Assembly: GCF_014199535.1 (NCBI RefSeq)
Contig: NZ_JACHNV010000002.1
Span: forward strand, 310,001-374,000
Direction: 5' to 3'
Source: Hymenobacter latericoloratus
GTDB taxonomy: Bacteria > Bacteroidota > Bacteroidia > Cytophagales > Hymenobacteraceae
DNA: 64,000 nt
Under the pieces are notes generated by a model, which worked only from the letters and a program-made list of their open reading frames with translations, was not told the DNA's origin and ran no database searches. Positions 8,548 through 47,063 of the stretch are shown here, piece by piece. How positions within the stretch are numbered: the first letter of the stretch is position 1; every line of letters begins with the position of its first letter. The position numbers were made by a program, and so were the translations under genes.

Positions 8548-8661
8548 CAAAACACGTCATCCTGAGCGTGCGAAGGGCCTTGTCAGGCCAGCACAAGTCA
8601 TAGGAACGACTGTAGCACTGACGTAATAAGGTCCTTCGCACGCTCAGGATGACGTGTTTTG
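8548..8661. repeat. GTCATCCTGAGC-type inverted repeat (family A)
   Basis: Outer arms 8548-8576 and 8633-8661 are perfectly complementary over 29 bp (CAAAACACGTCATCCTGAGC...), followed inward by GGGCCTT/AAGGTCC. The element sits between convergent rfaE1 and hemE and probably serves as their shared terminator. Confidence 0.9.
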
Positions 8662-27046: not shown

Positions 27047-27202
27047 GTGTCATGGCGAGGCACGAAGCCATCCTTCCTCTTTGTGTGACAAACCTCATAA
27101 AGTGAAAAGCCCCTACTTCCAGCGCGGATGTAAGGGCTTCTCACAGTAAAAGGGGTAGCACGTTGGTCAGGACGGATGGCTTCGGTGCCCTCGCCATGAC
27201 AC
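27047..27202. repeat. GTCATGGCGAGG-type inverted repeat (family C) with nested hairpin
   Basis: Left arm GTGTCATGGCGAGGCACGAA plus GCCATCC pairs with the right arm ending TCGCCATGACAC; the right arm has one or two extra bases. Inside is AAAAGCCCCTAC/GTAAGGGCTT. Same outer-plus-inner layout as the element at 55489. It lies between convergent genes and may terminate both. Confidence 0.8.
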
Positions 27203-36264: not shown

Positions 36265-37452
36265 ATGAAAAAGGTAGTATTAGCCTACAGCGGCGGCTTG
36301 GATACGTCCTACTGCGTTGTGTATCTGACCCGGGAGCTGGGCCTGGAAGTGCACACGGTCATTGTCAACTCCGGTGGCTTTTCCGAGGAAGAGCTGGCCG
36401 GCATCGAGAAGCGCGCCTACGAGCTGGGCTCCGCGAAGCACGAGGTGATTGACGTAACCCAGCGTTTCTACCAGGACTGCCTGCGCTACCTTATTTTTGG
36501 CAACATCCTCAAGAACGATACCTACCCGCTGAGCGTCAGTGCGGAGCGCATGTTCCAGAGCCTGGCCCTGGCCGAGTACGCCCGGGAGCACAAGGCCGAC
36601 TACATTGCCCACGGCAGCACCGGCGCCGGCAACGACCAGGTGCGCTTCGACGTGGCTTTCTCGGTTATCGCGCCCCACACGGAAATCATCACGCCCATCC
36701 GCGACCTGAAGCTCTCGCGCCAGGCCGAGATTGACTTCCTGCACCAGCACGGCTTCGAGATGAGCTGGGAAAAAGCCAAATATTCCATCAACAAGGGCAT
36801 TTGGGGCACCAGTGTGGGCGGCGTCGAAACCCTGACCTCGCACCAGGCCCTGCCGGAGTCGGCCTACCCCACCCAGCTCAGCGAAACCAAGCCTGCTACC
36901 GTCGAAATTACCTTTGAGAAAGGCGAGCCGGTAGCGCTGAACGGCAAGGCCATGAACCCCGTGGAGCTGATTCAGGCCCTGAACGAGCTGGCCGGTGCCT
37001 ACGCCATTGGCCGCGACACCCACGTGGGCGACACGATTCTGGGCATTAAGGGTCGCGTCGGTTTTGAGGCCCCGGCCCCGCTGATTCTGCTGAAGGCTCA
37101 CCATTTGCTGGAAAAGCACACTTCCAGCCGCTGGCAGCTGCTGCACAAAGATTACGTGGCCAACTGGTACGGTACGCTCCTGCACGAGGCCCAGTACCTC
37201 GACCCGGTGATGCGCGACTTCGAAGCCTTCCTCGCGTCGTCGCAGGAGCGGGTGTCGGGCACGGTGTTCGTGACGCTGAAGCCGTACCAGTTCGAGCTGC
37301 AAGGCATTGAGTCGCGCTACGACATGATGCGCTCCAAAGTGGCCACCTACGGGGAGGAAAACGACGCCTGGGACGGCCGCGACGCCAAAGGCTTCATCAA
37401 AATCTTCAGCAACCAGCTACGGATTCACAGCTCATTCAACGATGAAAATTAA
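36265..37452 (+). CDS. argG: Argininosuccinate synthase
   Basis: 395 residues. The ATP-pyrophosphatase P-loop is LAYSGGLDTSYC (about 6-17); GSTGAGNDQVRFD binds citrulline/aspartate, and KYSINKGIWGTSVGG is characteristic of the family. It joins citrulline and aspartate. The start is separated from the GNAT gene by 202 bp with no ORF, and the 3' end overlaps argC by 11 bp (37442-37452), so argG and argC are translationally coupled. Confidence 0.97.
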   Translation: MKKVVLAYSGGLDTSYCVVYLTRELGLEVHTVIVNSGGFSEEELAGIEKRAYELGSAKHEVIDVTQRFYQDCLRYLIFGNILKNDTYPLSVSAERMFQSLALAEYAREHKADYIAHGSTGAGNDQVRFDVAFSVIAPHTEIITPIRDLKLSRQAEIDFLHQHGFEMSWEKAKYSINKGIWGTSVGGVETLTSHQALPESAYPTQLSETKPATVEITFEKGEPVALNGKAMNPVELIQALNELAGAYAIGRDTHVGDTILGIKGRVGFEAPAPLILLKAHHLLEKHTSSRWQLLHKDYVANWYGTLLHEAQYLDPVMRDFEAFLASSQERVSGTVFVTLKPYQFELQGIESRYDMMRSKVATYGEENDAWDGRDAKGFIKIFSNQLRIHSSFNDEN

Positions 37453-38422
37453 GGTTGGCATCGTAGGCGGCGCCGGCTACACCGCCGGGGAGCTCATCCG
37501 CATTCTACTGCATCACGAGTACGCCGAGTTGGGCGCCATCGTCAGCTCTTCCAACGCCGGCAACCCCATCGCCCAGGTGCACGATGACCTGGTGGGCGAG
37601 ACGAACCTGGTGTTTACCGCGGAGCTGGCCGGTGATGAAGACGTGGTGTTCCTGTGCCTGGGCCACGGCAACTCTAAGGCCTGGCTGACCCAGCACGAGC
37701 TGCCCGGAACCACCCACATCATCGACCTCAGCAACGACTTCCGCCTGGAGGTTGACGCCGAGTTTGGGGGTAGGGAGTTTGTGTACGGGCTGCCCGAGCT
37801 GAACCGAAGCCGCATCCAGCAGGCTCAGAGTATTGCCAACCCCGGCTGCTTCGCCACGGCCATTCAGCTGGCGTTGCTACCCCTGGCCCAGGCCGGAAAG
37901 CTCACGGACGATGTGCACGTATCGGCCATTACGGGCAGCACGGGCGCGGGCCAGAGTTTGTCGGAGACGGTGCACTTCTCGTGGCGCACCAACAACGTAT
38001 CCATCTACAAGCCCTTCACCCACCAGCACCTCGGCGAGATAGGGGAGAGCCTGGCGCAGCTGCAGCCGCAGCTGGAACTGGACATCAATTTCATTCCCTA
38101 CCGCGGCAACTTCTCGCGGGGCATTTTCGCCAGCGTGTACACGCCCTCGGACCTGACCCAGGAAGGGGCCCGGGAGCTGTATCAGCAGTTCTACCAAGAT
38201 GCGCCGTTCACTACGGTTTCGGATAAGGAAATTCACCTGAAGCAGGTAGTAAACACCAATAAGTGCCTGCTGCACGTCCAGAAATTTGGCAAGCAACTGC
38301 TCATCACCTCGGTTATCGATAACCTCGTGAAAGGCGCTTCGGGCCAAGCGGTGCAGAACATGAATCTGCTATTCGGTCTGCCGGAAACGACTGGCCTAGG
38401 CTTGAAAGCGGGGCTGTTTTAA
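37442..38422 (+). CDS. argC: N-acetyl-gamma-glutamyl-phosphate reductase
   Basis: 326 residues. NADPH motif VGIVGGAGYTAGELIRILL at the N-terminus and catalytic Cys136 in IANPGCFATAIQL. NVSIYKPFTHQHLGEI and IPYRGNFSRGIF belong to the substrate/dimer domain. It reduces acylglutamyl phosphate to the semialdehyde, following ArgB. Overlaps argG by 11 bp. Downstream, the GAACGTCATG repeat begins 7 bp after the stop codon. Confidence 0.96.
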   Translation: MKIKVGIVGGAGYTAGELIRILLHHEYAELGAIVSSSNAGNPIAQVHDDLVGETNLVFTAELAGDEDVVFLCLGHGNSKAWLTQHELPGTTHIIDLSNDFRLEVDAEFGGREFVYGLPELNRSRIQQAQSIANPGCFATAIQLALLPLAQAGKLTDDVHVSAITGSTGAGQSLSETVHFSWRTNNVSIYKPFTHQHLGEIGESLAQLQPQLELDINFIPYRGNFSRGIFASVYTPSDLTQEGARELYQQFYQDAPFTTVSDKEIHLKQVVNTNKCLLHVQKFGKQLLITSVIDNLVKGASGQAVQNMNLLFGLPETTGLGLKAGLF

Positions 38423-38429
38423 CCCCGCA

Positions 38430-38474
38430 GAACGTCATGCTGAGCTTGTCGAAGCATCTCTACCGCTTCGTTGA
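38430..38474 (+). repeat. GTCATGCTGAGC-type repeat (family B), left copy
   Basis: 45 bp beginning GAACGTCATGCTGAGCTTGT and ending CTACCGCTTCGTTGA. Inverted copy at 38878-38922 differs at only two positions. Confidence 0.9.
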
Positions 38475-38518
38475 AACCTTTAAACTATTTCTTCCTGCCC
38501 CCTTTAAGAGCTGAAAAC

Positions 38519-38869
38519 ATGAATTACTACTATAAATATGCTAATCAGGAGGATACTCTTTTCGGTGAAGGCTTTGCTTATGTTGAGTATGGTGAAAATC
38601 TAGAGCCTTTAAGGCAGGTTGAAGATTACGGGAGGATTTTACTCTACTCCTATATTAACCCTCATACCTGCAAACAAGCTGGTACTTGTTACTTATCTGA
38701 AACTGATTTGAATCAAGAACTAGAATTACCTGAAAACGTCATCGCTGCAGCCACTTTTGAGCAAAAATGGCTGCAAGCACAGTTGTTCAGCGACAGACTC
38801 CTAGATATAGATAGGCGTCGGGATTTGACCTCCTCAACTGTCCAAGAAATAATTGCGGGCCGTCGTTAA
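38519..38869 (+). CDS. Small A/T-rich hypothetical protein between repeat copies (116 aa)
   Basis: Soluble, acidic protein starting MNYYYKYANQEDTLFGEGFA; contains an HTCKQAGTCYLSE Cys pair and a charged C-terminus (DIDRRRDLTSSTVQEIIAG). Base composition is far more A/T-rich than argC and argD on either side. It interrupts an otherwise normal argG-argC-argD order and lies entirely between inverted 45-bp repeats. No family recognised. Confidence 0.6.
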   Translation: MNYYYKYANQEDTLFGEGFAYVEYGENLEPLRQVEDYGRILLYSYINPHTCKQAGTCYLSETDLNQELELPENVIAAATFEQKWLQAQLFSDRLLDIDRRRDLTSSTVQEIIAGRR

Positions 38870-38877
38870 AATCAAAT

Positions 38878-38922
38878 TCAACGAAGCGGCAGAGATGCTT
38901 CGGCAAGCTCAGCATGACGTTC
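38878..38922 (-). repeat. GTCATGCTGAGC-type repeat (family B), right copy
   Basis: Inverted relative to 38430-38474: TCAACGAAGCGGCAGAGATG at the left and CAGCATGACGTTC at the right end. Lies 33 bp before the argD start. Confidence 0.9.
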
Positions 38923-38955
38923 TAGTTGCTAACCACTCTGACATCACCAAGAAAC

Positions 38956-40095
38956 ATGAACCTTTTCAACGTATATCCGCTCGTCAACATCACGCCGGTA
39001 AAGGCACTGGGAGCGAAACTTTGGGACGATAAGGGCCAGGAGTACCTGGATTTTTACGGCGGCCATGCTGTTATTTCCATCGGCCACAGCCACCCGCACT
39101 ACGTGCAGCGTCTCACGGAGCAGCTGCAGAACATCGGCTTCTACTCCAACTCGGTGCAGATTCCGATTCAGCGGGAGCTGGCCGAGAAGCTAGGCCAGGT
39201 ATCGGGCTACGCGGACTACTCGCTGTTTCTGTGCAACTCCGGCGCCGAGGCCAACGAGAATGCCCTGAAGCTGGCGTCTTTCCACACCGGCAAAAAGCGC
39301 GCGGTGGCCTTCAAAGGCGCTTTTCACGGCCGCACCAGCGGTGCGGTGGCGGCTACTGATAACCCCAAAATTGTAGCGCCTTTCAACGCCGACCACGCCA
39401 TTTCTTTCGTGGAGTACGACCTAGCGGCGGTGGAGCAGGTGCTGCAGGGCGGCGACGTGTGCGCGGCCATCATTGAGCCCATTCAGGGGGTAGGCGGCAT
39501 CATCATGCCTTCCGATGACTTCCTGACTGCCCTGGCGGCCCTGTGCAAGCAGTACGGCGCCCTGCTGATTGCCGATGAAGTGCAGAGCGGCTACGGCCGC
39601 AGCGGTAAGTTCTTCGCCCACCAGCACGCCGGCATCCGCCCCGATGTTATTTCGGTGGCGAAAGGCATGGGCAACGGCTTCCCCATCGGCGGCATCCTGA
39701 TTGCGCCGGAGCTGAAGGCGTCTTATGGTTTGCTGGGCACCACGTTTGGGGGTAACCACCTGGCCTGCGCCGCCGCGCTGGCCGTGCTGGAAGTAATTGA
39801 GCAGGAAAACCTGCTGGCCCACGCCACCGAGCTAGGCCACTACCTCCGCTCGGAGCTCGAAGCCAACGCCGGCGCCGAGGAAATTAGGGGCCGGGGCCTG
39901 ATGGTGGGCATCAAGTACGACTTCCCCATCAAGGACGTGCGCGACCAGCTGCTTTCGGAGCATCACATCTTCGTAGGCAACGCCTCCGACCCCACGGTGC
40001 TGCGCCTGCTGCCCCCGCTCAATATTACTAAAGCCGAGGTAGACCGGTTTTTGCAGGCGCTGTACGCATTAATTCCGGCCGAAGTGAAAAAGTAA
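38956..40095 (+). CDS. argD: Acetylornithine (acylornithine) aminotransferase
   Basis: 379-residue class III PLP aminotransferase. NSGAEANENALKLA binds PLP phosphate, FHGRTSGAVAATD is typical of ArgD, LIADEVQSGYGRSGKF holds the Asp that contacts the pyridine nitrogen, and K236 in SVAKGMGNGFPIGG is the Schiff-base Lys. It converts N-acylglutamate semialdehyde to N-acylornithine using glutamate. ATG 38956 is chosen over an upstream TTG because MNLFNVYPLV is the usual N-terminus. Confidence 0.96.
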   Translation: MNLFNVYPLVNITPVKALGAKLWDDKGQEYLDFYGGHAVISIGHSHPHYVQRLTEQLQNIGFYSNSVQIPIQRELAEKLGQVSGYADYSLFLCNSGAEANENALKLASFHTGKKRAVAFKGAFHGRTSGAVAATDNPKIVAPFNADHAISFVEYDLAAVEQVLQGGDVCAAIIEPIQGVGGIIMPSDDFLTALAALCKQYGALLIADEVQSGYGRSGKFFAHQHAGIRPDVISVAKGMGNGFPIGGILIAPELKASYGLLGTTFGGNHLACAAALAVLEVIEQENLLAHATELGHYLRSELEANAGAEEIRGRGLMVGIKYDFPIKDVRDQLLSEHHIFVGNASDPTVLRLLPPLNITKAEVDRFLQALYALIPAEVKK

Positions 40096-40630
40096 ACGAC
40101 CTGTGGCCTAACTTGCAGCCCCAATGAGTAGCACCCTGAAGCTCCCGAGCCCCGCTCCCCTTCTGACAAGCTGCCCGCTGCCATTGGTGACTCCTGCGCA
40201 GCAACCGGCCGGTTCTTTCCCCGAAAGAACAGCCTCCCCCTTTTCCTTCCAGCAGTTGTGCCCGCCCGACTTCCCGATGCCTGACATCTGGGAGCGGCCG
40301 GGTGCGGGACCGATTGAACTACCTTCTTTCGCTCCCGTTTGGCTTACCTCCTCGTTCGGCTGGAATAGACCCCTACTGTTTGGTTCTGTTCCAGCCGAAA
40401 TTGTATCCGGGCGGTTCCGAAAGCCGGCCGAGGCCACGCCACGCACTCACCAGACGCCCGGCAGCGGGATTTTTCAAATCGTCGCATCCCCTTCCAGAGG
40501 CAGGATGCGGAGTAGAGTTGGCGGGGCTGATAGGCATACTTGCCGCCTCCGCCTAACACAACGGGAAAGCCACGGGCCTGACTACCGCAGAAAACCATCC
40601 ATAGAGTAAACCCTTTTTTCGCAAAACAGA
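40096..40630. other. Long leader region upstream of carA
   Basis: 535 bp without a convincing gene; the only open frame has a composition unlike protein. Three hairpins: GTTCTTTC/GAAAGAAC at 40212-40230, TTCGGCTGGAA/TTCCAGCCGAA at 40355-40399, and CGCATCC/GGATGCG at 40483-40509. This could be a promoter plus attenuator region for carA, separating carbamoyl-phosphate synthesis from the argG-C-D transcript. Confidence 0.45.
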
Positions 40631-41719
40631 GTGGAAAACGCTAAATCGGTAAAACTCATTCTCGAAGACGGCACCGAAATCGAGGGCCAATCTTTTGGCG
40701 CCTTTACCTCGTCTGCGGGCGAAGTGGTGTTCAGCACGGCCATGACCGGCTACCCCGAAAACCTCACCGACCCGTCCTTCGCCGGGCAGATTCTGGTGCT
40801 CACCTACCCCATCGTGGGCAACTACGGCGTGCCGGGCGAGGAGCTGTACGAGTCGATTTCCCGCATTTTCGAGTCGGACAAGATTCACGTGGCCGGCCTG
40901 GTGGTCAACTACTACTCCGAGGAGCACAGCCACTGGCACGCCGCCAAGAGCCTGGGCGAGTGGCTGGCCGAGTACAACATCCCCGGCATCTACGGGGTGG
41001 ACACGCGCATGCTCACCAAGAAGCTGCGCGAGAAGGGCGCCATGCTCGGCAAAATCGTGGCCGACGGGGAGGACGTGCCTCTGCACGACCCCAACCAGGA
41101 CAACCTGGTGGCCCAGGTGAGCCCCGACGGCGTGCAGCACTACGGCACCGGCAAAAACAAAATCGTGCTGGTGGACTGCGGCACCAAGACCAACATTATC
41201 CGCTGCTTCCTGGAGCGCGACGTGGAGCTGATCCGCGTGCCCTGGGACTACGACTTCACCCAGCTCGACTACGACGGCCTGTTCCTGAGCAACGGCCCCG
41301 GCGACCCGAAAATGTGCGTGCCCACCATCGAGCACCTGCAGAAAGCCCTGCAGCAGGACAAGCCCATTTTCGGCATCTGCCTGGGCTCCCAGCTCATGGG
41401 CCTGGCCGCCGGCGGCGACACGTTCAAGCTCAAGTACGGCCACCGCAGCCACAACCAGCCGGTGAAGCTCACCGGCACCCAGCGCAGCTACATCACCAGC
41501 CAGAACCACGGCTTCGCGGTGGACACCGCCACGCTGCCGGCCGAGTGGGACATGCTGTTCGAGAACCTGAACGACGGCACCTGCGAAGGCATCAAGCACA
41601 AAACCAAGCCCTTTTTCTCCACCCAGTTTCACCCCGAAGCCGCCGGTGGCCCCCAGGACACGGAGTTTCTCTTCGACCAGTTCCTGGACGAGGTAGAGAA
41701 GTATAAGGCGGGCAAGTAG
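40631..41719 (+). CDS. carA: Carbamoyl-phosphate synthase small (glutaminase) subunit
   Basis: 362 residues. N-terminal CarA-specific domain (VFSTAMTGYPENLTDPSFAG) and a C-terminal class I glutamine amidotransferase domain: LSNGPGDP, nucleophile C250 in FGICLGSQ, and H334/E336 in FHPEAAGGP. It hydrolyses glutamine and channels ammonia to CarB. The start is GTG at 40631, supported by MENAKSVKLILEDGT, the normal N-terminus. carB is 838 bp downstream, beyond a repeat-bounded interval with two small genes. Confidence 0.96.
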   Translation: MENAKSVKLILEDGTEIEGQSFGAFTSSAGEVVFSTAMTGYPENLTDPSFAGQILVLTYPIVGNYGVPGEELYESISRIFESDKIHVAGLVVNYYSEEHSHWHAAKSLGEWLAEYNIPGIYGVDTRMLTKKLREKGAMLGKIVADGEDVPLHDPNQDNLVAQVSPDGVQHYGTGKNKIVLVDCGTKTNIIRCFLERDVELIRVPWDYDFTQLDYDGLFLSNGPGDPKMCVPTIEHLQKALQQDKPIFGICLGSQLMGLAAGGDTFKLKYGHRSHNQPVKLTGTQRSYITSQNHGFAVDTATLPAEWDMLFENLNDGTCEGIKHKTKPFFSTQFHPEAAGGPQDTEFLFDQFLDEVEKYKAGK

Positions 41720-41741
41720 CAGTAGCAGAACGACCGAAAAA

Positions 41742-41786
41742 GAACGTCATGCTGAGCTTGCCGAAGCATCTCTACCGCTTCGCTAG
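41742..41786 (+). repeat. GTCATGCTGAGC-type repeat (family B) after carA
   Basis: GAACGTCATGCTGAGCTTGC at the left; CTCTACCGCTTCGCTAG at the right. Near-identical to the copy after argC. Faces an inverted copy at 42482-42536. Confidence 0.88.
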
Positions 41787-41823
41787 TACAGTCATGGAGT
41801 ACGCCATATTTCGACAAAACACG

Positions 41824-42177
41824 ATGAGATTCTTAGTTCTGCTGCCTGCAATGGCCCTGTTCTTTAAACCTCCGGTATTGGTGAAATATGAAGGAGGCAG
41901 CCGATACCATTCCCACCTTACTCTGATACTCTATCAGGATTCAACTTTTACTTACTCTGCTTGGTACCATAGCGGACAGAGGAAAGTAGGTGTATATAAA
42001 GGAATATGGCGTAGCGCACCTGGTAAGCTAATTCTTGATTCAAAAAAGAAAAACGCTGCTTTTCATAATAGAAGCTTCGTTTTGAAAGGTGATACATTAA
42101 AGTTTTATTCCAGAGAGGATTCTATCAAAAACTATAGTTTTTACAAAGAATATTTTACCCTTGTTCGCAAACCATAA
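41824..42177 (+). CDS. Secreted hypothetical protein, paralogue of the gene at 46695 (117 aa)
   Basis: Hydrophobic signal-like start (MRFLVLLPAMALFFKPPVLV), then VKYEGGSRYHSHLTLILYQD and STFTYSAWYHSGQ, and a tail with LKGDTLKFYSREDSIKNY. The same ordered motifs occur in the protein at 46695-47063 (YEGG, TLTLHSDSTFTYSSWYH, VKGDTIKLYSKEDSIKDY). The pattern of short strands around G-x-W and LxLxSDSTF resembles lipocalin/NlpE-like small beta barrels; this is inference. A/T-rich codons. Begins 37 bp inside the family B repeat. Confidence 0.65.
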   Translation: MRFLVLLPAMALFFKPPVLVKYEGGSRYHSHLTLILYQDSTFTYSAWYHSGQRKVGVYKGIWRSAPGKLILDSKKKNAAFHNRSFVLKGDTLKFYSREDSIKNYSFYKEYFTLVRKP

Positions 42178-42185
42178 TAATCAGA

Positions 42186-42476
42186 ATGTACGTCTACATC
42201 CTGACCAACCCCACCCAAACAGTGCTCTACATCGGCGTGACGAATGACCTCCAGCGCCGCCTGCACGAGCACAGCAGCGGGCGGGGCGACGCCGGGAAGT
42301 TCACCGGGCGGTATCAGGCGGATTTGCTGGTGTACTTTGAAATCTGCCCCGATGCCACGCAGGCCATAGCGCGGGAAAAGCAGCTGAAAGGCTGGACCCG
42401 GAAGAAGAAAGATGCGCTGATTGCCGCGTTTAATCCGAGCTGGCAACCAATTGATTTAGAAACCTGGACTGGTTGA
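42186..42476 (+). CDS. Single-domain GIY-YIG nuclease family protein (96 aa)
   Basis: The GIY-YIG fold is clear: YVYILTNPTQTVLYIGVTND at residues 2-21 holds the paired Tyr motifs, followed by catalytic-region Arg in LQRRLHEHSSG. It then continues YFEICPDATQAIAREKQLKG with the metal-binding Glu and ends in WTRKKKDALIAAFNP. This is the UPF0213/YhbQ-like stand-alone type. It follows the secreted paralogue by 8 bp and is followed by an inverted family B repeat. Host-like GC content. Confidence 0.9.
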   Translation: MYVYILTNPTQTVLYIGVTNDLQRRLHEHSSGRGDAGKFTGRYQADLLVYFEICPDATQAIAREKQLKGWTRKKKDALIAAFNPSWQPIDLETWTG

Positions 42477-42481
42477 TTTTG

Positions 42482-42536
42482 CGACGAAGCGGTAGAGATG
42501 TTTCGACTCCGCTGCGCTCCGCTCAACATGACGTTC
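42482..42536 (-). repeat. GTCATGCTGAGC-type repeat (family B) before carB
   Basis: CGACGAAGCGGTAGAGATGT at the left and CTCAACATGACGTTC at the right. It has roughly 10 extra bases in the middle compared with the other copies. Ends 21 bp before the carB ATG. Confidence 0.85.
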
Positions 42537-42557
42537 TGATTGAACACACACGACCTA

Positions 42558-45500
42558 ATGAACAAACCCAACAAAGTCCTCATCCTCGGTTCCGGTGCCC
42601 TCAAAATCGGGGAGGCCGGGGAGTTCGATTACTCCGGTTCGCAGGCGCTGAAGGCGCTGAAAGAGGAAGGCATCCGCACCATCCTTATCAACCCCAACAT
42701 TGCCACCGTGCAGACGTCGGACGACATTGCCGACGACGTGTACTTCCTGCCCGTGACGCCCTACTTCGTGGAGGAAGTCATCAAAAAGGAACAGCCCGAC
42801 GGCATTCTGGTGGCCTTCGGCGGCCAGACGGCCCTGAACTGCGCCGTGGCCCTGTACCGCGCCGGCGTGTTTGAGAAGTACCACGTGCGCGTGCTCGGCA
42901 CGCCCGTGCAGAGCATCATCGACACCGAGGACCGCGACATCTTCAAGGAAAAGCTCGACCAGATCGGCGTGCTCACGGCCCGCAGCGAAGCCGTGACGAC
43001 GATGGAAGACGCCCTGGCCGCCGCGGAGCGGATTGGCTTCCCCATCATCGTGCGCGCCGCCTTTGCCCTAGGTGGCCTGGGCAGCGGCTTCGCCAACAAC
43101 ATGGACGAGCTGCGCGCCCTGGCCCAGAAGGCTTTCTCGACCTCGGACCAGATTCTGGTGGAAGAGTCGCTGAAAGGCTGGAAAGAGGTGGAGTACGAGG
43201 TGGTGCGCGACCAGTTCAACAACTGCATCACCGTCTGCAACATGGAGAACTTCGACCCCATCGGTATCCACACCGGGGAGAGCATCGTGGTGGCCCCGTC
43301 GCAGACGCTGAGCAACCGCGAGTACCACAAGCTGCGCAGCATCGGCATCAAGACCATCCGCCACCTGGGCATCGTGGGCGAGTGCAACATTCAGTACGCC
43401 CTCGACCCGCACTCGGAGGAGTACCGCGTGATTGAGGTGAATGCCCGTTTGTCGCGCTCCTCGGCGCTGGCTTCCAAGGCTACGGGCTACCCGCTGGCTT
43501 TCGTGGCCGCCAAGCTCAGCCTGGGCTACTCGCTGGCCGAGCTGAAAAACAGCGTGACGCAGACCACTTCGGCCTTCTTCGAGCCCTCGCTCGACTACCT
43601 GGTGGTGAAGCTGCCGCGCTGGGACCTAGGGAAATTTTCGGGCGTGCAGCGCCAGATCGGCTCGGCCATGAAGAGTGTGGGCGAGGTCATGGCCATCGGC
43701 AAAACCTTCGAGGAAGCCGTGCAGAAGGGCCTGCGCATGCTGGATACCGGCCGGCGCGGCTTCGTGGCCAACAAGCCCGAGCCCATCGACCTCGCGGACC
43801 TCGACCGGCTGCTGAGCGAGCCGAACGAGGAGCGTATCTTCGCCATCAACGAGGCCTTCCAGGCCGGCTACGACGTGGAGCGCGTGTACGAGCTGACGCG
43901 CATCGACCGGTGGTTTTTGCAGCGCCTCTACGGCATCTACCAGCTGAGCCTGCAACTCGCCTCAACGCGCCAGCAGGGCGGCCTCGACGCCCTCGACACC
44001 GACCTGCTGCGCCAGGCCAAGAAGTCGGGCTTCTCGGACCAGCAGCTGGCCGTGCAATTGCTCGGTCCGGCCGAGGTGAAGGCCAACGAAATGCTGGTGC
44101 GCGCCCGCCGCAAGGCCCTGGGCGTGGTGCCCGTGGTCAAGCAAATCGACACGCTGGCGGCCGAATTCCCGGCCCAGACCAACTACCTCTACCTCACTTA
44201 CCACGGCACCGAAAACGACCTGGAACCCGAAACCGACAAGTCGGTGGTGGTGCTGGGCTCGGGCGTGTACCGCATCGGCTCCTCGGTGGAGTTTGACTGG
44301 TGCGGCGTGAATGCGGCCCAGACGGTAAACGAGGAAGGCTACAAGTCCATCATCATCAACTACAACCCCGAAACCGTTTCGACCGACTACGATGTGTCGG
44401 ACCGCCTGTACTTCGAAGAGCTGAGCTACGAGCGGGTGATGGATATTCTGGACTTCGAGGAGCCGCAGGGCGTGATTCTGAGCACCGGCGGGCAGATTCC
44501 GAACAACATTGCCACCCGCCTCGAAGCGGCCGGCGCGCCCATCCTGGGCACCGCCGCCTCGCGCATCGACGAGGCCGAAAACCGCCACAAGTTCAGCAGC
44601 ATCATGGACGAGCTGGGCATTGCCCAACCGCGCTGGAGCGAGCTGACCACCATGGAGGCCATCTACGACTTCGTGAAGCAGGTGGGCTTCCCGGTGCTGA
44701 TCCGCCCGAGCTACGTGCTGTCGGGCGCGGCCATGAACGTGGTGTCGAACCCGCGGGAGCTGGAGGAGTACCTGAAGCTGGCCGCCGAGGTCAGCGCTGA
44801 GTACCCGGTGGTGGTGTCGCAGTTTATCCAGGATGCTAAGGAAATCGAGCTGGACGCGGTGGCCGACAAGGGCGAAATCGTGTCGTACGCCATTTCGGAG
44901 CACGTGGAGTTTGCCGGCGTGCACTCCGGCGACGCCACCATGTACTACCCGCCGCAGCGCGTGTACGTGGGCACAGTGCGCAAGCTCAAGGTCATTGCCG
45001 AGAAGATTGCCAAGCGCTTTCAGATCAGCGGGCCGTTCAACATCCAGTTCCTGGAGAAAAACCGCGAAATCCGCGTTATCGAGTGCAACCTGCGCGCCTC
45101 GCGCAGCTTCCCGTTCGTGAGCAAGGTATCGGGCAACAACCTGATCAAGAAGGCCACGAAAGTGCTGCTCGGCCAGCACGTGGACCGCGACGCGAGTGAG
45201 CTGGTGTACGACCTGCCCTTCGTGGGCGTGAAAGCCTCGCAGTTCTCCTTCACCCGCCTGCAGGGCGCCGACCCGGTGCTGCGCGTGGACATGACCAGCA
45301 CCGGCGAAGTGGGCTGCCTGGGCGACACGGCCGAGGAAGCGCTGCTGAAGTCCTTGCTGTCGGTGGGCTACCGCATTCCGGAGAAGACGGTGCTGATGTC
45401 CAGCGGCCCGCTGACGTCGAAAGTAGCCCTGCTGGAATCGGCGCAGGTGCTGGTGCAGCGCGGCTATACCATCTACGCTACGCACGGCACGCACAGCTTC

Positions 45501-45826: not shown

Positions 45827-45877
45827 GAACGTCATGTCGAGCTTGTCGAGACATCTCGCGTGCTCTGCATGACGTTC
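45827..45877. repeat. Compact GAACGTCATG...CATGACGTTC element (family B, 51 bp)
   Basis: The ends are perfect inverted repeats GAACGTCATG and CATGACGTTC; between them is GAGCTTGTCGAGACATCTCG. This is the shortest full family B element here and defines the ends shared by the cargo intervals. Confidence 0.85.
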
Positions 45878-46446: not shown

Positions 46447-46599
46447 ATGAGAAGAAATCGTGCGTCGAAGGTAAGACGTAACGTCCGCCTTCGCAAACCT
46501 ATACCAACGCAGCCCGAAAATGGTTTCCGTTGGTGGTGGCTGGTTCAGGAGCTGGTCAAGGCGGTGCTTACCGCCGCGGCCCGGCACTGGATCGGCTAA
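46447..46599 (+). CDS. Small basic ORF (50 aa) with hydrophobic helix
   Basis: ATG at 46447 opens MRRNRASKVRRNVRLRKPIP, strongly basic, then a Trp-rich and hydrophobic part (FRWWWLVQELVKAVLTAAAR) ending at TAA 46597-46599. A textbook terminator starts 10 bp later, and a promoter-like box and a hairpin lie upstream, so this is a complete transcription unit. The layout, basic head and amphipathic helix, could suit a membrane-active peptide or a small DNA/RNA-binding protein. It may instead be a non-coding RNA. Confidence 0.4.
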   Translation: MRRNRASKVRRNVRLRKPIPTQPENGFRWWWLVQELVKAVLTAAARHWIG

Positions 46600-46609
46600 C
46601 CGGGGTTGG

Positions 46610-46645
46610 CAAGGAGCGGAGCCGATTGGCTCCGCTCCTTGTTTT
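46610..46645 (+). terminator. Rho-independent terminator after the 50-codon ORF
   Basis: Stem CAAGGAGCGGAGCC/GGCTCCGCTCCTTG with a 4-nt loop (GATT), followed by TTTT at 46642-46645. Confidence 0.85.
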
Positions 46646-46694
46646 GGCCTTACCGCTTTGTTGTCCTCAATGCCATGCCATTACCAACTTTCAT

Positions 46695-47063
46695 ATGAAA
46701 CTACTTATCTGCTCTGGGCTAGCAGCGACTTTGCTTCTCGCCCCAGACCCTGTTCAGGTATATGAAGGAGGCCGACCGCGCTATTCCGGAATTACGCTTA
46801 CTCTTCATTCGGATTCAACCTTTACCTATTCTTCCTGGTACCATCATAGCAAAGGCGTGCTGAAGGATAAAGGCACTTGGCAGCGAAAGGGAAACTACCT
46901 GGTGCTGAATTCGCGCCGCCAAAAGCCAAAAGGCTTTTTTAACAAAGAATACTTTAGAGTGAAAGGCGACACGATTAAGCTTTACTCGAAAGAAGATTCA
47001 ATCAAGGATTACGATTTCTACAGATGTTATTATACGCTCCTGCTTCAACGACCTACAAAGTAG
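46695..47063 (+). CDS. Secreted hypothetical protein, paralogue of the gene at 41824 (122 aa)
   Basis: Signal peptide MKLLICSGLAATLLLAPDPV, then VYEGGRPRYSGITLTLHSDS, TFTYSSWYHHSKG and GTWQRKGNYLVLNS; ends VKGDTIKLYSKEDSIKDYDF. It aligns end to end with the protein at 41824-42177. The repeated L-x-L/DSTF/G-x-W pattern suggests a small secreted beta barrel. Unlike its paralogue it is not bounded by family B repeats. Starts 49 bp after a terminator. Confidence 0.7.
   Translation: MKLLICSGLAATLLLAPDPVQVYEGGRPRYSGITLTLHSDSTFTYSSWYHHSKGVLKDKGTWQRKGNYLVLNSRRQKPKGFFNKEYFRVKGDTIKLYSKEDSIKDYDFYRCYYTLLLQRPTK

Follow-up and report, generated by a model that had tools for sequence, protein, structure and literature searches.

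REPs of the CGTC type have been recorded in five phyla, Bacteroidetes among them, and are built from an 8-9 bp stem starting with AT, a short loop and the tag CGTC (or TGTC/CCTC), as far as the accessible text of the defining survey goes (Di Nocera et al. 2013, PMC3733652). The dRS3 repeat of Neisseria is the CGTC-1 REP, and the same portion of the survey reports CGTC REPs without a dedicated transposase or enzyme (PMC3733652). The minimal mobile element of Saunders and Snyder (2002) comprises cassettes that are said, in the part of the source available to us, to move by homologous recombination alone (PMC3898611). Here, a gene-bearing unit with CGTC-type ends was analyzed in Hymenobacter latericoloratus, within a window of 64,000 nucleotides (the whole stretch of DNA under analysis, positions 310,001 to 374,000 of contig NZ_JACHNV010000002.1).

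The unit occupies 493 bp between two genes that, from their translations, we take to be argC (37442..38422, + strand) and argD (38956..40095, + strand), the neighboring argG, carA and carB being named in the same way. argC, argD and carA were each recovered as single orthologs in the genus. The first-pass annotation had placed inverted repeats around one ORF at 38430..38922 and had put the insertion in the arg operon, and both points were borne out, as two arms of 47 nt each, 96% complementary and 401 nt apart, enclose one ORF of 116 aa with argC on the left and argD on the right. Each arm is a REP consisting of the 27-mer GTCATGCTGAGCTTGTCGAAGCATCTC plus an inner tail, TACCGCTTCGTTG, and AGAACGTCATG opens both arms, which puts the CGTC tag at the outer ends of the unit. 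The left arm (38429..38475, + strand; 27-mer at 38434-38460) has the inner tail TACCGCTTCGTTGAA, while the right arm (38877..38923, - strand) is an inverted REP with the inner tail TGCCGCTTCGTTGAA. The single sizeable ORF between them (38519..38869, + strand) runs in the operon direction from an ATG at 38519 to a stop codon at 38867-38869, leaving 43 nt between left arm and ATG and 7 nt between stop and right arm. Terminal inverted repeats are present as in a MITE, but a gene lies inside where a MITE is non-coding, and the spacer of 401 nt with its gene contrasts with the short spacer (about 20-100 bp) of a REPIN. No Rfam matches were found in 38300-42700.

The cargo ORF is a near-orphan: no family match was obtained in Pfam or NCBIfam, a comparison against 5.77 billion proteins returned the ORF itself as the sole match, and the single-sequence structure model was too poor for use (mean pLDDT 49). 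Distant relatives were present in 3 of the 149 genomes searched, and no REPs flanked any of the three, one of which had a weak REP-like match ~0.95 kb off. Relatives carrying the ORF without repeats had been named in advance as counting against a REP-ended unit; such relatives do exist, but at 43-48% identity and at other loci. One of them lies near a SUKH-family gene, a weak hint that the cargo relatives may occur in immunity-type neighborhoods.

Copies were counted at different scales. With ≤3 mismatches allowed, the window contained 13 occurrences of GAACGTCATGNNGAGCNNG, compared to an expectation of 1.7 (the maximum of 100 shuffles being 5), and the arm repeat had 37 copies in the genome against 0 for a reversed control, many of them as close inverted pairs ~65 bp apart, with isolated REPs also occurring. 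For the comparison of slots across the genus (below), REPs were called with a single detector, which returned 23 calls in the window against 1.0 per shuffled window. In the strict sample, 132 compact inverted pairs and a single far inward pair were counted among the 119 loci listed, so that many copies, mostly in close inverted pairs, were found for this repeat; the lone far pair surrounds an Imm50 gene in Solirubrum. Variants of the presumed stem change on both sides (ATGCT/AGCAT, ATTCC/GGAAT, ATGTC/GACAT and ATCCT/AGGAC, the last AGGAT-like), and many of them read as AT plus three complementary bases, although the detector itself demands two of three such pairs. Judged by sequence, these matching stem changes mark the arms as the CGTC-tagged REP class of Di Nocera et al. 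The hairpin is suggested by the stem variants and not by energy, as the arm hairpins were no more stable than shuffles when folded as single DNA strands (z -0.9, -0.4 and -0.3).

A 51-bp element at 45827..45877 (no strand assigned) had been described as having the same ends as the unit. The outer ends are indeed shared, yet the likeness goes no further than the common REP tag: the halves of this element have the stem types ATGTC (left) and ATGCA (right), which makes it a short REP pair distinct from the unit, and the common outer ends are the general tag of the REP class. The window is also shared by at least three further REP types, every one as inward pairs, including ATCCT pairs at 8556, 16509, 22832 and 57609 and GTCATGGCGAGG / GTCATTGCGAGG pairs at 27049 and 55491.

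The suggestion of a REPIN- or MITE-like unit that had picked up a gene stood in part, in that the arms are REPs of the REPIN-forming kind and the unit recurs; it does not appear to be simply a compact REPIN split by a gene. Inner tails were alike on both arms in 23/30 gene-bearing pairs, compared to 35/128 compact ATGCT pairs in the sample, and splitting was not favoured on these figures, which serve as a pointer only because the two sets of pairs come from different loci (same-type tests for pairs <9 bp or 120-149 bp apart were omitted). Two far inward pairs elsewhere in the genome, which enclose several or long genes (C3:34404-36879 and C3:427171-432002) were not counted as cassettes. Alternatively, two REPs may have landed independently beside an orphan gene already present in the operon. 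REPs are common, isolated ones exist, compact pairs are by far the commonest form, and three relatives of the cargo ORF have no REPs, all of which would suit independent landings; the inner tails, which match in 23 of 30 far pairs, would not, and together with the orientation and recurrence described below they make this an improbable account.

A second unit with the same plan, which was absent from the first-pass annotation, was found between carA and carB (41742-42536) and has two genes inside. Its left REP arm (41742..41783, + strand) is followed by a cargo ORF of 142 aa (41749..42177, + strand, as listed mechanically, the true start possibly lying further in), a GIY-YIG nuclease gene of 96 aa (42186..42476, + strand; PF01541, E = 2.3e-18) and a right REP arm of a long-loop variant (42481..42536, - strand). 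The cargo has a weak NlpE-like match and a paralog at 46530-47063, an NlpE-like gene (PF04170) downstream of carB.

The contents of both slots were compared across the genus in 80 further genomes plus the genome itself, taken from 117 genomes with an argC match; G024, G074, G067, G084, G088, G166, G022, G030 and more distant genomes were omitted. Among 81 argC-argD junctions, 20 were direct joins (overlapping TAATG), 21 held a compact REP pair, 6 a REP-gene-REP arrangement with three cargo families, and 16 a gene with no REPs at its flanks; the remaining 18 had other short spacers, in some cases with unrelated palindromes. Two observations had been anticipated for an element of this kind, namely empty sites in relatives and other ORFs enclosed by the same ends. 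The former are the 20 junctions at which argC runs straight into argD, and the latter comprise five further REP-gene-REP units with two other cargo families at argC-argD, plus 23 gene-enclosing inverted (+/-) pairs in 78 carA-carB junctions. The arrangement had been called rarely described; within the genus this is one of many such units. No REP was called in 78 argD-carA junctions. On a tree of argC+argD the slot content changes 40 times among the 81 rows, both the Imm50-like and the C20 cassettes are spread over separate clades, and the gene-enclosing REP form is a minority that recurs.

In related genomes, two conserved genes enclose differing gene cassettes, which is the pattern of a minimal mobile element, and the slots could be explained by such exchange only, through homologous recombination in argC/argD or carA/carB, with REPs as passive passengers or stretches of homology and the nuclease merely limiting the uptake of REP-bearing DNA. 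The available text on Neisseria defines its minimal mobile elements in just such terms (PMC3898611), the conserved-operon slots turn over fast, and they do so also with REP-free genes and with unrelated palindrome families. REPs are unneeded for gene entry at argC-argD, given that 16 of 81 junctions have a gene and no REPs. We nevertheless consider recombination as the sole agent rather unlikely. It does not predict the one-sided orientation of the arms: when neighboring REPs at least 150 bp apart and enclosing a gene were taken from both slots, 28 of 31 were '+-', 3 were '--' and none were '++' or '-+', although pairs across junctions are not independent events and five argC-argD units enter this count compared to six elsewhere, the mechanical ORF of L271 starting inside a REP. 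The three '--' pairs surround a nuclease gene behind another unit. The inward bias also argues against independent landings, as does the same REP frame around many cargo families in two slots.

ORFs with REPs on both sides numbered 40 in 20 families, and 39 of the 40 run in the operon direction. In eight of nine comparable pairs (one of them a nuclease pair, none involving the argC-argD ORF) dN/dS was 0.06-0.24, the ninth being undefined, and purifying selection acts on the cargo families for which a comparison of pairs was possible. Other palindrome families (CCCAGGGTT..., CCCCAGCCCCTCCCC..., CCTCTCCGAAAAGGAGAGG, GAGACGCA...TGCGTCTC) occupy the argC-argD or carA-carB slots elsewhere, at junctions L056, L061, L060, L231, L232 and L233. 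The sister genomes L303 and L305 sit on very short branches of the argC+argD tree and differ in carA-carB content, with a nuclease-bearing unit in one and a short spacer with a different palindrome pair in the other, which makes them good material for breakpoint mapping. In L246 and L254, a 2.8-kb stretch between argD and carA contains genes that, from their sequences, we take to be purE- and purK-like.

One cargo family (cluster C4) is Imm50-like (Pfam Imm50, PF15594, E = 2.6e-9) and shows arm and gene physically joined. Its members had REPs on both sides in 3/3 cases in argC-argD and 4/5 in carA-carB. Matches to the family were obtained in 41/120 genomes, and at the 30 of the listed places examined, with flanks of 700 and 1000 bp, REPs were present on both sides in 13, on one side in 11 and on neither in 6. 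At 13 of these 30 loci the REP arm itself encodes the stop codon together with the final residues (mostly TKQ or TKR). Going by coordinates, five of these arm-supplied stops lie in argC-argD, two in carA-carB, four at a further arg-region site and one each at two other places. Since the arm supplies the stop codon, gene and arm would travel together. Exchange by homologous recombination only does not predict arms fused to the same gene at differently flanked loci, and the recurrence of arm-written stops at several loci of one cargo family disfavours separate REP landings at each site.

The nuclease of the second unit belongs to a group with a close tie to REPs. REPs are found around all three GIY-YIG genes of the genome, the stem type differing from gene to gene. 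In a sample from 61 genomes, 57 distinct nuclease loci were examined (from 60), and a REP was found within 300 bp on both sides in 46, on one side in 11 and on neither in 0, compared to 4, 19 and 36, respectively, for 59 control ORFs of the window. Within the carA-carB slots, 10/10 nuclease ORFs with an ATG start had REPs on both sides, the GTG-start nuclease of L281 being left out of this count. Along with the GIY-YIG domain and the gene position beside the repeat, the catalytic positions have been kept (R25 and N83 in 57/57, E64 in 55/57), and the nearest solved chains are the UPF0213 proteins 1zg2 and 1ywl. The nearest left and right stems were equal at 40/46 nuclease loci, whereas shuffles gave a mean of 10.1 and a maximum of 21. 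Neighboring separate REPs had equal stems in only 35/68 cases (Fisher p = 1e-4), and this excess of matching at nucleases is again unpredicted if recombination were the sole agent. Many nuclease loci of the sample occupy orthologous sites, the 57 loci representing 25 places by their flanking genes. Stem type changed 13 times on the nuclease tree compared to at least 26 in 300 shuffles, and 7 times compared to at least 11 in 1000 shuffles when one row was kept per place, on a tree with few columns and many weak forks.

The pairing extends beyond the genus. At 27 nuclease loci of other Bacteroidota, REPs were present on both sides in 22, on one side in 3 and on neither in 2, and their density was 6.5 per kb near the nuclease versus 0.83 elsewhere in the same loci; left and right stems agreed in just 10/22 nuclease loci. 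ATCCT REP numbers follow the presence of an ATCCT-flanked nuclease only in part: the median was 60 in the 18 genomes with such a nuclease versus 6 in the other 43 (p = 0.003), yet G009 and G010 have one and carry 0 and 1 ATCCT REP, while G011 and G019 carry 234 and 280 with no such nuclease among the loci examined. Eight of the 61 genomes had no nuclease match and still contained 15-174 ATGCT-type REPs. Between 12 and 15 GIY-YIG matches each, some of them clustered, were present in G229 (C31:267-274 kb), G464, G407 and G321.

A transposase could have taken the role of the nuclease, the unit then being a composite REPIN mobilized by a RAYT or another Y1 transposase of the IS200/IS605 type. The genome has three Y1_Tnp matches that exceed the family cut-off, and pairing of REPINs with RAYTs is known for GTAG-type REPs in the portions of the sources available to us (PMC3116915, PMC3733652). 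However, no CGTC-type REP was found at the three Y1 loci (3.2 kb, ~1.5 kb either side), so the pairing of repeat and enzyme gene that marks REPIN-RAYT systems was not seen here, and the accessible text of Di Nocera et al. likewise reports no case in which CGTC REPs flank a transposase gene (PMC3733652). We regard mobilization by a Y1 enzyme as very improbable.

Overall, we give roughly even credence to the reading that the 493-bp unit is a gene cassette with inverted CGTC REP ends, for which slot exchange helped by a repeat-specific GIY-YIG nuclease encoded elsewhere in the genome is predicted. The argC-argD copy itself is likely a gene cassette of predicted mobility, at which no target-site duplication was established, and we infer that the nuclease would drive cassette movement. 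It would recognize its own REP, probably as single-stranded DNA, as is said of the Neisseria enzyme Ssn, and a cut at the REP would free or open REP-bounded segments. These segments could then be pasted at another REP pair, or imported from other strains, by homologous recombination. The carA-carB unit, with cargo and nuclease, would be self-sufficient, and the argC-argD unit, which has no nuclease of its own, would depend on other loci for the enzyme. A broader proposal can be put forward only tentatively, namely that CGTC REPs are the ends of an integron-like cassette platform of Bacteroidota, in which cognate GIY-YIG nucleases of the homing type, with one stem code per clade, would cut REPs and move or import small genes (immunity and orphan genes) between REP pairs, the argC-argD unit being served in trans. 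REP-free relatives of the cargo ORF, REP-rich genomes without a nuclease, REP numbers that track the nuclease only in part and REP-free slot genes fit the cassette reading poorly. The unremarkable folding of the arms and the limited stem agreement outside the genus also count against it.

The steady REP/GIY-YIG pairing in Hymenobacter, which carries over to further Bacteroidota, points to a candidate enzyme for these REPs, and the stem type of each nuclease would provide a readable code that is open to direct bench checks. If cassettes are moved by REP and nuclease together, this would explain the shuffling of small orphan and immunity genes inside core biosynthetic operons, which is usually put down to anonymous recombination. 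Among the papers listed in the open PMC subset, neither REP-ended gene cassettes nor a paper on GIY-YIG genes paired with REPs or extragenic palindromic repeats was found.

By analogy, the argC-argD unit can be placed as an element resembling the minimal mobile element with repeat ends of its own, or as one resembling a REPIN with a nuclease as partner. As in Hymenobacter, members of the CGTC REP superfamily have a CGTC/GTC tag, a stem opening with AT (in Hymenobacter a presumed one) and mostly inverted, close intergenic pairs, and DNA between dimer partners is mentioned in passing, so far as the accessible text describes them (PMC3733652). Unlike in that description, the Hymenobacter slots have a gene between the REPs as a rule at certain sites, and a GIY-YIG gene is a regular neighbor. 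With REPIN/RAYT systems the unit shares two inverted REPs acting as one unit and a repeat type tied to an enzyme gene, going by the available part of the source (Bertels and Rainey 2011, PMC3116915), whereas it is ~0.5 kb long with a gene inside and a different tag, and its partner gene encodes a GIY-YIG nuclease and not a Y1 transposase. Neisseria minimal mobile elements, in the text available, similarly have a pair of conserved genes between which the whole-gene cassette differs from strain to strain (PMC3898611). In contrast, many Hymenobacter cassettes have conserved REP ends of their own, and one family recurs with such ends at several sites.

The nearest parallel in enzyme and repeat comes from the Neisseria GIY-YIG enzyme Ssn, which reportedly cuts CGTC-type repeats (NTS) in single-stranded DNA, this NTS repeat being, it is said, dRS3. 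Both systems tie a small GIY-YIG nuclease to a specific CGTC-class repeat, and with dRS3 being CGTC-1, part of this nuclease-repeat pairing may be known already. To our knowledge, the Ssn system has no repeat-ended gene cassettes, no nuclease genes inside them and no arms within a cargo reading frame, whereas in Hymenobacter there are REP-ended cassettes, some with the nuclease inside, and arms that form part of the cargo reading frame. Integron cassettes are small single genes that nearly always share the orientation of their host operon, have palindromic ends and turn over rapidly, and the Hymenobacter units are alike in gene size and number, operon direction, palindromic ends and rapid turnover. 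Integron cassettes use an integrase together with attC/attI, while the ends of the Hymenobacter units are REPs in inverted order.
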